A DNA stretch of 43,320 nucleotides, taken from Alphaproteobacteria bacterium. Its GTDB lineage: Bacteria; Pseudomonadota; Alphaproteobacteria; CACIAM-22H2. The stretch spans positions 1 through 43,320 of the forward strand of contig JAEUKZ010000269.1 of NCBI GenBank assembly GCA_016793045.1, read 5' to 3'. Within the stretch, counting starts at the first letter, position 1. The number at the start of each line of letters is the position of its first letter. The notes under the pieces are model-generated. The model had not been told where the DNA came from. It made no database searches and saw nothing but the letters and a program-made list of their open reading frames with translations. Positions 22,518 through 38,757 of this stretch are shown here, in pieces. Both the position numbers and the translations under genes were made by a program.

Positions 22518-24076
22518 TGGACAAGTCCCAGGGACGGACGAGCCGCGAGGGCGTTTCCGATGGTGCAGATCAGGTGACGACGGCGTCGGGGCATCGCGGC
22601 CTCCTGATGGAAGAGCCGCTGATCTTCGAGCAGGGCAGCGATGGCCGCATTGGCGTCGACCTTCCGGAGGTGCCGGAGCACAAGATGCGCCTCGGGGCCC
22701 TCGAGCGCAGCGGCCCGATTGGGCTCCCCAGCCTCTCGGAGCCGCAGACGATCCGGCATTTCACGCGCTTGTCGCAGAAGAACTACGCGATCGACGCCGG
22801 GCTCTATCCGCTGGGTTCGTGCACGATGAAGCACAACCCGCGGATCAACGAGAAATTGGCGCGGCTTCCCGGGTTCGCCGATCTGCATCCGCTGCAGCCG
22901 CGTTCGACGGTGCAGGGCGCCCTGGCGCTGATGGACCTCCTGGCTCATTGGCTCAAGAGCCTGACCGGCATGCCGGCTGTCGCGCTGTCGCCCGCGGCGG
23001 GCGCGCATGGCGAGTATTGCGGAATGGTCGCCATCCGCGCGGCCATCGAGGCGCGTGGCGAGGGACGGCGACGCGTCCTGGTCCCGGAATCGGCGCATGG
23101 CACCAACCCGGCGACGGCTGCGTCGATCGGGTTCACGGTCGACCCGATCCCGGCCGGCCCTGACGGCCGCGTCGACATCGCGGCGATGAAGGCGAAGCTC
23201 GGCCCGGACATTGCCGGCCTGATGCTGACCAACCCGAATACCTGCGGCCTGTTCGAGCGCGATATCATCGAGATCGCCAGGCTGATCCACGAATCCGGCG
23301 GATACTTCTACTGCGACGGCGCCAACTTCAATGCCATCGTCGGCCGCGTCCGCCCTGCGGATCTCGGCATCGACGCGATGCACATCAACCTGCACAAGAC
23401 GTTTTCCACGCCGCATGGCGGCGGCGGCCCCGGCTCCGGTCCGGTCGTTTTCTCGCAGGCGCTCGCACCTTACGTCCCAGTGCCCTACGTCGTGCACGGC
23501 CCCGACGGGTTCAGGCTTGTCGAGACCGCGGGGGAGGGCAGCACGTCGTTCGGCCGGCTCAAAGGCTATCACGGGCAGATGGGCATGTTCGTTCGTGCGC
23601 TCGCGTACATGATGAGCCACGGTGCCGACGGGCTGCGACAAGCTGCCGGGGATGCCGTCCTCAACGCGAACTATGTGATGGCGCAGCTCAAGGACGTCAT
23701 GACGGTCGCCTTTGACGGCCCGTGCATGCACGAAGCGCTCTTCGATGATCGCTTCCTCAAAGACACGGGCGTAACCACCCTCGACTTCGCCAAGGCGCTG
23801 ATCGACGAGGGCTATCATCCAATGACGATGTATTTCCCGCTCGTCGTGCACGGCGCGTTGCTGATCGAGCCGACCGAATCGGAAAGCAAGGACACCATCG
23901 ACCAGTTCATCGGCAGTCTGCGTTCGCTGGCGGGACGGGCGAAAGCGGGCGATGCGGCTTCGTTCCACGCTGCGCCACGGCTCACACCGCGGCGGCGCCT
24001 CGACGAAACACGGGCGGCACGCCAGCCGATCTTGCGCTGGCGATCCGCAGGCGGCACGTCGCAAGCGGCAGACTGA
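22517..24076 (+). CDS. gcvPB: Glycine dehydrogenase (decarboxylating) subunit 2
   Basis: 519 residues from ATG 22517, overlapping the gcvPA stop. The PLP lysine is Lys294 in HINLHKTFSTPHGGGGPG, the standard site. Other family segments are LYPLGSCTMKHNPRINE, SPAAGAHGEYCG, PESAHGTNPATAAS, GLMLTNPNTCGLFE and AFDGPCMHEALFDDRF. The first 30 residues (to LLMEEPLIFEQ) are not part of the usual fold; a later start at Met31 is possible but would lose the overlap. The C-terminus adds a short Ala/Ser tail after the usual RLDETRAARQPILRW. It is the last gene of the operon and converges with the ribbon-helix-helix gene; no hairpin terminator is seen in the 33 bp between. Confidence 0.97.
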   Translation: MDKSQGRTSREGVSDGADQVTTASGHRGLLMEEPLIFEQGSDGRIGVDLPEVPEHKMRLGALERSGPIGLPSLSEPQTIRHFTRLSQKNYAIDAGLYPLGSCTMKHNPRINEKLARLPGFADLHPLQPRSTVQGALALMDLLAHWLKSLTGMPAVALSPAAGAHGEYCGMVAIRAAIEARGEGRRRVLVPESAHGTNPATAASIGFTVDPIPAGPDGRVDIAAMKAKLGPDIAGLMLTNPNTCGLFERDIIEIARLIHESGGYFYCDGANFNAIVGRVRPADLGIDAMHINLHKTFSTPHGGGGPGSGPVVFSQALAPYVPVPYVVHGPDGFRLVETAGEGSTSFGRLKGYHGQMGMFVRALAYMMSHGADGLRQAAGDAVLNANYVMAQLKDVMTVAFDGPCMHEALFDDRFLKDTGVTTLDFAKALIDEGYHPMTMYFPLVVHGALLIEPTESESKDTIDQFIGSLRSLAGRAKAGDAASFHAAPRLTPRRRLDETRAARQPILRWRSAGGTSQAAD

Positions 24077-24109
24077 CGGAAGGTCTCTGCCGCGAGGCCG
24101 GGCGATCGG

Positions 24110-24478
24110 CTACGGCTTGGTGGAGCCGGTCGGCGGAGACGCTGGCCGCGGAGTGTCCTCGGGGGCCGGGGGACGAGGCTTGCCTGCACCGCGCGCGCGG
24201 CGCTGCGGGGCGGGCGCAGCCGACTGCTTGGCCAGGGTCGCCTGCGCGAACGCGTCGAGTTGGGCCAGACGCTCGCGAAAGTAGAGCATGACCTCGATCC
24301 GGACGGCGGACGACAGACCGCCGCCGCGCCGCTTCTCCGCAATCATCGTGCAAACCGAATCGATATCAGCCCCTTCGCGCCGGGCGATCTCCGCAAGCGC
24401 CTCCCAGTAGGGCTGTTCGAGACGCATGCTCGTTCGGCGGCCCGCTATTCGCACGTTGCGGGGCAAGTTCCTCGCCAT
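24110..24478 (-). CDS. Ribbon-helix-helix domain protein
   Basis: 122 residues from ATG 24478 (MARNLPRNVRIAGRRTSMRL); an ATG at 24535 would add 19 residues. The N-terminal domain reads RRTSMRLEQPYWEALAEIARRE, then IDSVCTMIAEKRRGGGLSSAVRIEVMLYFRERL. This is the alphaproteobacterial RHH_4-type ribbon-helix-helix family: one beta strand and two helices, which dimerise to bind DNA. The C-terminal third (from about residue 80) is Ala/Pro/Arg rich and probably disordered. The target is unknown. A 24-base palindrome with a promoter-like -10 lies 73-96 bp upstream and may be an operator, perhaps its own. It lies downstream of bolA on the same strand. Confidence 0.85.
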   Translation of the reverse strand: MARNLPRNVRIAGRRTSMRLEQPYWEALAEIARREGADIDSVCTMIAEKRRGGGLSSAVRIEVMLYFRERLAQLDAFAQATLAKQSAAPAPQRRARGAGKPRPPAPEDTPRPASPPTGSTKP

Positions 24479-24550
24479 CACACCATTCGCGCTGATCACG
24501 CGCCTATGTTCCGACGACCGGCACCCGGTTGCCATCGTCGCGATAAAGTT

Positions 24551-24574
24551 TCGTCAAATTATTACATTTGACGA
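24551..24574. promoter_or_regulatory. 24-base palindrome, candidate operator upstream of the RHH gene
   Basis: TCGTCAAAT (24551-24559), centre TATTAC, ATTTGACGA (24566-24574): nine perfect base pairs of symmetry in an AT-rich stretch. On the minus strand TTGCAA (24583-24578) and TAATAATT lie at near-promoter spacing, with the AT part inside the palindrome. A repressor bound here would block the RHH promoter. Confidence 0.55.
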
Positions 24575-24656
24575 TTCGTTGCAACCATCGCTCTAAATGC
24601 GGACCGCGTATACACCTAATCGGATGACGCGCAGCACAATCGAAAATTGGTGGCGT

Positions 24657-24935
24657 CTACGCGCGCGGCGCTTCGCCCGGTGCGAGCGTCGTCAGCTGCA
24701 ATGCATGCAGTCCCGTGCGGAACTCGTCCGCGAGCAGATCGTAGACCAGGCGTTGGCGGTTGACGCGTGACATGCCGGCGAAGGCCGCCGCGACGATCGT
24801 TACCGCGTAGTGCGTTTCGCCGTCGGGACGGGCGCCCGCATGCCCTGCGTGGCGACCGGAATCGTCGACGACCTCCAAGCGCTCCGGGGCCAGTCCGGCC
24901 TCGATCACGCGCCTGATCCGGTCGGCGCGGCTCAT
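24657..24935 (-). CDS. BolA family protein
   Basis: 92 residues, the size and fold order of BolA: helix MSRADRIRRVIEAGL, then strand ERLEVVDDSGRHAGH, the loop carrying GRHAGHAGARPDGETHY, then VTIVAAAFAGMSRVNRQRLVYDLLADEF with the conserved R-X-X-R-Q-R..Y core, and HALQLTTLAPGE. BolA proteins work with monothiol glutaredoxins in iron-sulfur trafficking and regulation. The start overlaps the stop of the lipoprotein gene by four bases (ATGA), tying it to the Mla-type operon; a BolA relative next to mla genes is also known in E. coli (ibaG). I cannot separate BolA from IbaG by sequence here, so no symbol is given. Confidence 0.92.
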   Translation of the reverse strand: MSRADRIRRVIEAGLAPERLEVVDDSGRHAGHAGARPDGETHYAVTIVAAAFAGMSRVNRQRLVYDLLADEFRTGLHALQLTTLAPGEAPRA

Positions 24936-25573
24936 GGCCGCGCCGGACGCTGGGTGTGGCCGGCGGCGCGCAGCGTCCATTCGACGATCTGCCGGCAGGC
25001 CTGGCCCACGGCTTCGTCGAAGGCCAGAGCGACGCGGTCGATCGCCGTGCCGTCGGCGCGGATAGCCTGCGTGAAGACCTGGCCGCCGACGATGGCGCGA
25101 TCGGGCAGCCTGATCAGGCGTGCAACGATTCGTACCGTTGCCTGCGGTGGGCCGTTTCCGTTGTCGTAGTCGGCTTGCAGGTCGCGCAACTCCGTCGCCA
25201 GGATGTAGTCGGAGCGGAAGCGGGTCGAATCGCGCCCCACGCCGGCAATACGGGCCGAATTCTCGAAGGTCTGGACGAGCGCAGTCTGAACCATCTCGGG
25301 TGCGGCGTCGGTCCAGGTCACGTTGGCGTAGTATTCGAGCGTGACGGGCGAACGGCGCAACGCGATGCGTTGCGTGTTCAGTCCTTGCGGCGCGGTCGGA
25401 ACCGGAATCTCCAGGTTCCAATCGACCCGAGGCAGGTCGTTGGAGAAGCCGGACCGGGGGTTGACCGTAAAGAGGCGCGGCGGATCACCGCCTCCGGTGA
25501 TCGCGGCGCTGCAGCCGCCGAGGACGAGGGGGGGAAGTAGCAGCGCGAGCAAACCGCGGCGCGCGATTGTCAT
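24932..25573 (-). CDS. ABC-type transport auxiliary lipoprotein
   Basis: 213 residues. The signal peptide MTIARRGLLALLLPPLVLGGCS ends in a lipobox with Cys21. The mature part fits the ABC_trans_aux family (PqiC/YmbA-related): RLFTVNPRSGF near the start, LEIPVPTAPQGLNTQRIALRR, YYANVTWTDAAPEMVQTALVQ, ATELRDLQADYDNGNGPPQ, and a C-terminal FDEAVGQACRQIVEWTL. Lipoproteins of this kind act with MCE proteins at the outer membrane. It overlaps mlaD upstream by four bases and bolA downstream by four bases, so the genes are tightly coupled. Its presence instead of a periplasmic MlaC makes the operon look part Mla, part Pqi. Confidence 0.9.
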   Translation of the reverse strand: MTIARRGLLALLLPPLVLGGCSAAITGGGDPPRLFTVNPRSGFSNDLPRVDWNLEIPVPTAPQGLNTQRIALRRSPVTLEYYANVTWTDAAPEMVQTALVQTFENSARIAGVGRDSTRFRSDYILATELRDLQADYDNGNGPPQATVRIVARLIRLPDRAIVGGQVFTQAIRADGTAIDRVALAFDEAVGQACRQIVEWTLRAAGHTQRPARP

Positions 25574-26544
25574 CGTGGTCTGAAGCCTCGTTGCTGGTCG
25601 CCGAAGAAGAAGCGTGCCGGATCGCGCTCGACCTGCAGAAGCAGCCGCGACAGCGAGGACACCAGGGTCCGCGCTTCGACGACGAGCTGGGAGATGTCCT
25701 GCAGGTTGTACTGCGCGAAGTCACGGACCGGTCGCCGCAACTCGGCGAGGATGACGTCGACCTGCGTGCCCAGGCGTTCGAAGCTCTGCATCGTGGCGCG
25801 GATGTCTTCGAGGCTGCGCTCGGCGCCGGCGAGCAGGCCGTTGCGGGCGCCGACCCGCTGCAGGACGGAGCGCAGGTCGCGCGCGAGCGCGGTGGCCTCA
25901 GTCGCCGTTCCGCGCAGCGACGACAACGTGCCATTCGCCTCTTCGACCGTCGTCGTGATCTGCGCGGATGCGTCTGCAAGGCCGCTGGTCATCCGATCGA
26001 GATTCGCCGCGATGGCGGAGAGGTGGGCGATGTTCTCGTCGCTGAGAAGCTGATTGAGGCGGACCGCGATCTGGCCGATCTGCGCGAACAGCTCGGGGGC
26101 ATCGTCGAACAGACGATCGAGCGGCGACGGTCGCCAGGGGATGACGGCCCGTCGCCGGCCGGGACGTGGCAGGAGCGGCTCCGCCGCCTGCGTGCCGCCG
26201 AACAGCTGGATGTAGCTGACGCCGGTGACGAAGCTGCCGATCGCGAGCTGGGCGTAGGTGTCGGTCTTGATCGGGGTGCCGGTGCGGATCGAAACGGTCA
26301 CCTGGATCAGTTCGATGTTCTGGTCGTCGAGCGAGATGTCGGTCACGGTTCCGACCGGCACGCCGCGCAGCCGCACCGGCGCGCCGACGAGCAGCCCGGT
26401 CACCGAACCGCGGAAGTAGATGTAGTAGAACGTGCCGACGTCGCGCTCGCGATAATTGGACAGCCACATCACCGAGATGAACGCGCCCGTGATGATCACG
26501 AGCACGAACAGGCCGACGAGAAAGTAACTCGCGCGCGTTTCCAT
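25570..26544 (-). CDS. mlaD: MlaD family MCE protein
   Basis: 324 residues. One N-terminal transmembrane helix (YFLVGLFVLVIITGAFISVMWL, residues 7-28) is followed by a single MCE domain: FYYIYFRGSVTGLLVGAPVR, then LRGVPVGTVTDISLD, then VSIRTGTPIKTDTYAQLA and IGSFVTGVSYIQLFGG. From about residue 140 to 310 a long, mostly alpha-helical and probably coiled region (LSAIAANLDRMTSGLADASAQ, TATEATALARDLRSVLQRVG) could span part of the periplasm. It should form a ring on the MlaFE complex and bind lipid. Six bases separate it from mlaF. The helical extension is longer than in E. coli MlaD. Confidence 0.92.
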   Translation of the reverse strand: METRASYFLVGLFVLVIITGAFISVMWLSNYRERDVGTFYYIYFRGSVTGLLVGAPVRLRGVPVGTVTDISLDDQNIELIQVTVSIRTGTPIKTDTYAQLAIGSFVTGVSYIQLFGGTQAAEPLLPRPGRRRAVIPWRPSPLDRLFDDAPELFAQIGQIAVRLNQLLSDENIAHLSAIAANLDRMTSGLADASAQITTTVEEANGTLSSLRGTATEATALARDLRSVLQRVGARNGLLAGAERSLEDIRATMQSFERLGTQVDVILAELRRPVRDFAQYNLQDISQLVVEARTLVSSLSRLLLQVERDPARFFFGDQQRGFRPR

Positions 26545-37383: not shown

Positions 37384-38757
37384 ATGAGCGATTTCGACCT
37401 GGACTACCTGGTTATCGGCGCGGGATCGGGCGGCGTCGCTTCGGCGCGGCGTGCGGCGTCCTACGGCGCGAAGGTCGCGATCGTCGAGTCGGTCCGAGTT
37501 GGCGGAACCTGCGTGCTTCGCGGCTGCGTACCGAAGAAGTTGCTGGTTTACGGCACGCACTTCGCCGAGGAGTTCGCCGACGCAGTCGGCTATGGCTGGA
37601 CGGTCGGCACGCCGACGCTCGACTGGGCGAAGCTGATCGCTGCCAAGAATCGCGAACTCGATCGGCTCAACGGCATCTATATCAAGATGCTGAATGACTC
37701 GAAGGTGGCGATCGTCGAGGGCCGTGCGCGCTTCGTCGACCGCAGCCGTGTCGATGTGGGCGGGCGTGTCATGTCGGCACGGCACATTCTCGTGGCGACC
37801 GGCGGCCGGCCGGAATTGCCGGACATCCCCGGCATCGAACATGCGATCACGTCAGACGAGGCGCTCGATCTGCCGCGGTTGCCGCGCCGGGCGGTCGTCG
37901 TCGGCGGCGGGTATATCGCAGTCGAGTTTGCGGGAATCTTCGCGGCGGCCGGCGTCGCCGTGACCGAAATCATCCGTGGCCCCCAGATCCTGCGCGGCTT
38001 CGATCGCGAAGTCGCGATGCATCTGGCGGGCGAGATGAAGAAGCACGGCATCGCCATTCGCCCGTCGACGAAAGTGGTGGCGATCGAGCGCGCCGGCGAG
38101 AGCTTCATCGTCGTAACCGATGACGGCACCCGGATCGAGGCGGACGTCGTGATGTACGCCACGGGGCGGACGCCGAACACGGCAGGGCTCGATCTGGACC
38201 GCATCGGCGTGCACCTCAACAAGCGCGGTGCGATTGTGGTGGACGAGCGGCAGCAGACGACCGCTTCGGGCGTATACGCGATCGGCGACGTCACGGACCG
38301 CATAAATCTGACCCCCGTCGCGATCGCGGAAGGACGGGCGCTGGCCGAAACGCTGTTCAATGACAACCCGCTGACCGTCGATCATCGCGACGTCCCGACG
38401 GCTGTGTTCAGCCAGCCGCCGGTCGGAACGGTGGGGCTGACCGAAGAGGCGGCGCGCGCGATCGGCGAGGTCGACGTCTACAAGGCCGCGTTCCGGCCGA
38501 TGAAGCACACCTTGTCCGGCCGCGACGAACGCACACTGATGAAGCTCGTCGTCGATCGCGCGTCCGGCCGGGTCCGCGGCTGCCACATGGTCGGCGCCGA
38601 TGCGCCGGAGATCATTCAAGGGCTTGCCATCGCGGTGAAGGCTGGCCTCACCAAGGCCGATTTCGATCGCACGATCGCGATCCATCCGACGGCGGCGGAG
38701 GAGTTCGTGCTGATGCGAGAGCCGGTGAAGCCGCCGATCGCCCAGGCGGCGCAGTAG
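37384..38757 (+). CDS. gor: Glutathione-disulfide reductase
   Basis: Reduces GSSG to GSH with NADPH and FAD in the cytoplasm. 457 residues. FAD-binding GAGSGGVASARRAASYG at residues 12-28, redox pair GGTCVLRGCVPKK (Cys41 and Cys46), NAD(P)-binding VVVGGGYIAVEFAGIFAAAG near 175, second FAD contact YAIGDVTDRINLTPVA near 300, and the active-site His-Glu in TIAIHPTAAEEFVLM at the C-terminus. All catalytic residues are present. The start ATG 37384 is seven bases after the DUF599 stop with GAGGCGGCG upstream. It is convergent with the YdcF gene and their stop codons are five bases apart. Confidence 0.96.
   Translation: MSDFDLDYLVIGAGSGGVASARRAASYGAKVAIVESVRVGGTCVLRGCVPKKLLVYGTHFAEEFADAVGYGWTVGTPTLDWAKLIAAKNRELDRLNGIYIKMLNDSKVAIVEGRARFVDRSRVDVGGRVMSARHILVATGGRPELPDIPGIEHAITSDEALDLPRLPRRAVVVGGGYIAVEFAGIFAAAGVAVTEIIRGPQILRGFDREVAMHLAGEMKKHGIAIRPSTKVVAIERAGESFIVVTDDGTRIEADVVMYATGRTPNTAGLDLDRIGVHLNKRGAIVVDERQQTTASGVYAIGDVTDRINLTPVAIAEGRALAETLFNDNPLTVDHRDVPTAVFSQPPVGTVGLTEEAARAIGEVDVYKAAFRPMKHTLSGRDERTLMKLVVDRASGRVRGCHMVGADAPEIIQGLAIAVKAGLTKADFDRTIAIHPTAAEEFVLMREPVKPPIAQAAQ

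Follow-up and report, generated by a model that had tools for sequence, protein, structure and literature searches.

In the window (the whole 43,320-nucleotide stretch of DNA analyzed here), the small ribbon-helix-helix (RHH) protein encoded after bolA most likely binds a symmetric operator in the gap between the two genes and represses itself; judging from sequence, we assign a probability of roughly 60% to this reading, in which the perfect palindrome at 24551-24574 is not the operator. The gene family, the gene order, a motif common to the bolA-RHH gaps of the class, the rarity of this motif in control regions and its two matches in the window gap were all computed. The common motif, and not the palindrome, is the operator candidate to put first. 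An unconserved palindrome is thereby replaced by an operator candidate that lends itself to testing in cultured members of the class. The features are as follows:

24110..24478, minus strand: gene for the RHH_4 (PF13467) regulator, likely start at 24478, alternative upstream ATG at 24535
24479..24656, minus strand: bolA-RHH gap, containing the palindrome and both motif matches, presumably the RHH promoter
24551..24574, no strand given: palindrome TCGTCAAAT-N6-ATTTGACGA, exact, with perfect 9-bp arms; not found before orthologues; putative function only
24580..24596, plus-strand letters TGCAACCATCGCTCTAA: second match to the class-wide motif in the gap and third in the window, 6.3 bits read on the minus strand and 6.9 on the plus strand
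24635..24651, plus-strand letters CACAATCGAAAATTGGT: best window position for the class-wide motif, candidate operator, 9.7 bits when the window's family is left out of motif training
24657..24935, minus strand: bolA (PF01722)

The gene downstream of bolA had been described as encoding a ribbon-helix-helix protein, and a profile search bore this out, as the product matched RHH_4 (PF13467) at 68.2 bits (cut-off 25). The likely start at 24478 lies approximately 14 residues before an invariant RTS, as in several relatives. All 41 aligned proteins, that of the window included, matched the RHH_4 profile, which assigns them to a domain family only. Residues R15, T16, S17, L20, E21, W25, and R60 are invariant in the 41 sequences and the RTS-x-R-LE residues of the RHH strand show little or no variation; this conservation of strand and helix residues across the orthologues is as expected for a member of the RHH DNA-binding superfamily. 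A single-sequence structural model of low confidence (mean pLDDT 59.2) predicts a strand at residues 19–21 and helices at 22–35, 39–49, and 57–86, the strand-helix-helix order expected for RHH proteins. When relatives in named genomes were sought by peptide patterns, none was confirmed.

Three solved structures were retrieved at E ≤ 5 with the family profile, of which only the uncharacterized protein BP1543 (PDB 3kk4, E = 4e-13) is a convincing relative; it has TS-x-RLE in common with the family, and its record names no function or DNA site. MetJ, CopG, Arc, and the RHH antitoxins are autoregulated RHH repressors. The system of the window resembles them in that symmetric sites, here predicted from sequence, precede the gene of a small RHH protein, but differs in that the RHH gene is without a downstream operon partner, the neighboring long open reading frame (ORF) being convergent (by eye, we take it to be gcvPB). 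The neighbors do not fit an antitoxin of a type II toxin-antitoxin system, as bolA lies upstream and the long ORF that follows the RHH gene is encoded on the other strand. Autoregulation by RHH proteins is a known kind of system, of which the bolA-linked RHH_4 would be a new member. Among the matches listed, titles and abstract openings contain no description of a bolA-linked RHH protein or its operator; in the same parts of the records, nothing relevant was listed for PF13467 or RHH_4 and nothing was found for the motif together with ribbon-helix-helix.

The gene bolA is found widely and belongs to iron-sulfur and stress biology. In the window it is encoded on the same strand (minus) as the RHH gene, with the palindrome after bolA and before the RHH gene, and the order of the two genes recurs. 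A search with the RHH protein found bolA directly upstream in 23 of 30 loci (own locus included), and in all 64 bolA-RHH loci the RHH gene is on the bolA strand. Conversely, 228 of 289 genomes of the class, which we take from its gene content to be the Alphaproteobacteria, have a bolA match, and bolA is followed by RHH_4 in 54 of the 140 bolA-bearing genomes examined. For the first 130 bolA loci, taken mostly with the best bolA matches first, an RHH_4 gene (> 30 bits) lies downstream in 44, with two loci that are ended by contig ends (L149 and L200) counted as negative; the other 10 genomes came via the RHH search and are all positive. The fraction 54/140 is therefore not a class-wide frequency, and two genomes with contig ends (G262 and G149) and 86 further bolA genomes stand outside this count. 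Within the family of the window, RHH_4 follows bolA in 12 of 21 bolA loci, one of which ends at the bolA stop codon. These data link bolA to a recurrent small regulator. On the other side of bolA, the window carries a lipoprotein-like and an MlaD-like ORF (24932-26544; named by eye), and a relative of the lipoprotein-like ORF likewise adjoins bolA in 8 of the 29 other loci examined.

The gaps between bolA and the RHH gene share a symmetric motif. In 59 non-redundant gaps, TRCAACC and its reverse complement are enriched, with ACAACC present in 14 gaps (2.4 expected) and TACAACC in 7 (0.4 expected). The dyads ACA-N9-TGT and CAA-N7-TTG are enriched as well and assemble into RCAACC-N3-GGTTGY, which at a match of at least 10/12 occurs in 12 of 63 gaps, compared to 1.2 in shuffles (the gap of locus L014, shorter than 60 bases, was dropped from the 63-gap counts). 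An everted order of the half-sites, RGTTGY-N6-RCAACY, was also observed 4 times in the gaps of the 64 loci, where 0.05 were expected. We performed motif discovery with our own expectation-maximization (EM) script, and both the unconstrained and the symmetric fits yielded TACAA-YY...GTTGTA motifs. The log-likelihood was 182 for the unconstrained fit (74–89 in shuffles) and 133 for the symmetric fit (40–44 in shuffles), with more starts for the real data than for the shuffles (250 versus 120, and 60 versus 40). A symmetric fit on control regions likewise reached 107, versus 43 in shuffles, with an unrelated GC-rich motif; beating shuffles alone therefore proves little, and the case is carried by the held-out and control counts.

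In-sample, 42 of 63 gaps match the motif, a figure that is biased by training and gives way to the held-out figures. In a random four-fold test, 26 of 59 held-out gaps matched at p < 0.05, of which 15 also passed p < 0.01, and one of the four folds settled on an AT-rich motif. When whole families were left out in six folds, with each family weighted once, all six folds converged on TACAACCTAAGGTTGTA; the held-out gaps then matched in 39 of 63 cases at p < 0.05 and in 24 at p < 0.01, and with one gap drawn per family 23 of 36 families matched (p < 0.05). Of the 12 gaps in the family of the window, 6 reached p < 0.05 and 4 gave no sign of the motif. As controls for a motif trained on the complete set of gaps, only 4 of 67 regions downstream of bolA in RHH-negative loci matched at p < 0.05 (a control set without the RHH-negative loci among L051-L098), as did 3 of 42 other gaps of 80–400 bp. 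The latter come from a heterogeneous pool, in which some loci belong to other phyla and some were obtained through the motif search; their GC content is 36% versus 49% in the targets, and two of their three positives (L217 and L218) had been fetched by motif search. We conclude that the class-wide motif is conserved before orthologous RHH genes.

The bolA-RHH gap of the window (178 bp, 51.7% GC) contains the positions ranked first and third in the entire window by a motif whose training set left out the window's family. Of the shuffled versions of the gap, 1.2% attained the best score and 0.23% the second-best, and 1 of 3000 attained both. Taken alone, the best site has a p-value of 0.012 to 0.04 depending on the training set (0.04 in the random four-fold and 0.023 in the leave-family-out test). 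Both matches are diverged from the consensus, and the one at 24635-24651 lies 188 bases from the RHH domain, farther than most sites. The match at 24580-24596, 5 bases from the palindrome, is a candidate operator or half-operator; its TGCAACC half-site overlaps GTTGCAAC at 24578-24585. The RHH domain of PutA binds GTTGCA, a core that can be contained in the conserved half-site GGTTGYA/TRCAACC, and in the window GTTGCAAC occupies 24578-24585; PutA differs in being a large enzyme of proline catabolism. In the own genome, 13 places match ACAAYYNNNRRTTGT at ≤ 1 mismatch, one of them in the bolA-RHH gap; with 34 places for the backwards control, this pattern is not enriched. The arms and spacing of the palindrome do not agree with the class motif: when the family is left out of training, no 17-bp window with a start at 24546-24562 scores above -0.6, and among the positions listed its region reaches 1.8 bits at most when the motif is trained on all gaps.

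In the mechanism that we propose, RHH_4 would be a small repressor, encoded directly after bolA, of which a dimer would bind a 15–17 bp symmetric operator (approximately TACAAYYWWRRGTTGTA) in the bolA-RHH gap and in doing so repress its own promoter. In the window the operator would consist of the two diverged matches, 24635-24651 and 24580-24596, with the palindrome as a lineage-specific feature beside it that may have no role. We infer from sequence both the binding of the motif by the RHH protein and repression as its effect. Co-occurrence alone cannot name the binding protein, and the motif could belong to a regulator other than the RHH protein; we consider this improbable, as the motif accompanies the RHH gene and not a bolA that lacks this neighbor (the 4 of 67 regions above) and the RTS-x-R-LE strand is near-invariant in 41 proteins, as expected for a conserved site.

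The palindrome itself is a real feature. Its perfect 9-bp arms between bolA and the RHH gene are present exactly as the preliminary description gave them, at 24551-24574, which is 73–96 bases before the likely ATG of the RHH gene. Its rarity is modest; it is unusual for this gap but not for the window. Among 3000 dinucleotide shuffles of the gap, 35 (approximately 1%) contained an inverted repeat with 9-bp arms and a spacer of ≤ 12, and 21 one with a spacer of ≤ 8; the whole window holds 14 inverted repeats (arms ≥ 9, spacers ≤ 12) compared to 2–10 in eight shuffled windows. By eye, it is the only AT-rich one of these 14, and it sits in a regulatory gap. The proposed overlap with promoter-like sequence found no counterpart in a consensus scan for one promoter type, as no sigma-70-like site was detected in 24000-25500.

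We searched for the palindrome in 143 genomes, comprising the own genome, 22 of the same family and 120 of the class, a set without a second genome of the genus. The own genome holds a single copy at ≤ 2 mismatches, and two further places at 3 mismatches each fall within at least one stop-free frame of at least 100 codons, although in a GC-rich genome such frames point only weakly to coding. The shorter core GTCAAAT-N6-ATTTGAC has 3 extra places in the own genome at 2 mismatches (0 for the backwards control), one of which overlaps a palindrome-like place already found. Copies at ≤ 2 mismatches occur in 9 of the 143 genomes, including that of the window. Each of the remaining 8 (of 142) has one copy, at 2 mismatches, which is covered by at least one frame free of stops over 100+ codons. 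None of these 8 copies has an RHH gene within approximately 1.5 kb on each side. A species-genome collection yielded 8 exact copies, with no RHH gene in the flanking stretches (for two of the sites the stretch ends after 86 and 546 bases), and viral contigs yielded none.

Upstream of the RHH orthologues the result was the same, and here the preliminary description had itself named absence as grounds for abandoning its proposal: the closest match to the palindrome in any of the 63 other bolA-RHH gaps has 7/18 mismatches. We therefore rejected the palindrome as a conserved operator, for relatives that include no genus-mate. Long palindromes as a feature common to the orthologous gaps were rejected as well, as 4 of 64 gaps have unusually long ones (p < 0.05) and 3.2 were expected; that of the window is the second-most unusual of the 64 (p = 0.007). 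Two other gaps, those of L074 and L119, carry long palindromes of other sequence (GCCGTATTT-N10-AAATACGGC and GTGTATTT-N6-AAATACAC; p = 0.003 and 0.01), which are probably due to chance. Of the proposed autoregulation through the palindrome, the first part holds as the best reading, on the strength of another motif, and the second does not, as the palindrome is not the conserved signal. The earlier reader thus picked out a genuine feature and may be right about the type of regulation, but the conserved signal is another sequence.

The palindrome is a lineage-specific extra, perhaps a product of chance, an added operator or an mRNA hairpin. Our figures for these readings are separate from those for the motif. 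The leading view, to which we give even odds, is that the inverted repeat arose by chance in an AT-rich gap and has no function; the 14 such repeats in the window, the 4 of 64 orthologous gaps where 3.2 were expected and the missing conservation all fit, but the palindrome is the sole AT-rich one of the 14, lies in a regulatory gap and has a frequency of approximately 1% within it. The same 1%, together with the perfect arms and the second rank among 64 gaps, would fit an operator that this lineage acquired by itself or in addition to the conserved sites, with an RHH dimer on each arm or a different local regulator as the binding protein. A single genome copy at ≤ 2 mismatches is as expected for a purely autoregulatory site, and a conserved-type half-site is only 5 bases away. 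We nevertheless regard this as unlikely, given the distance of the nearest match in the other gaps, arms and spacing that do not fit the class motif and the lack of enrichment of long palindromes in bolA-RHH gaps. It is more doubtful still that RHH_4, beside bolA across many families and autoregulated via a conserved TACAAYYWWRRGTTGTA, has here seen its sites decay, with a new 24-bp palindrome taking over as operator.

Least probable for the palindrome is a role at the RNA level, where it would form a hairpin in the RHH leader or serve as a weak terminator or processing site of bolA. RNA transcribed from the minus strand over 24530-24600 has a folding energy of -22.9 kcal/mol (z = -3.57), with none of 200 shuffles as stable, but a DNA palindrome folds well by construction. 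The single terminator-like site in 24000-25500 is at 25140 on the plus strand, away from the palindrome, no Rfam match reached the gathering score in 24000-25000, and the palindrome is not conserved.

With regard to the class-wide motif outside the window, a regulon search in 10 motif-bearing genomes gave 65 matches at ≤ 1 mismatch on both strands; as the backwards control gave 88, we claim no regulon. A strong site, TACAATTATAGGTTGTT, was found in genome G160 (locus L157), where contig C6 carries zero-mismatch copies at 38475-38489 and 38507-38521, their starts 32 bp apart, before the bolA-linked RHH gene. This pairing suggests tandem operators. In genome G227 (contig C3, L203), the zero-mismatch motif palindrome ACAACTTAAAGTTGT at 54236-54250 lies approximately 4 kb from the bolA-RHH site, in the stretch before a minus-strand ORF of 335 amino acids, and is a possible second target.
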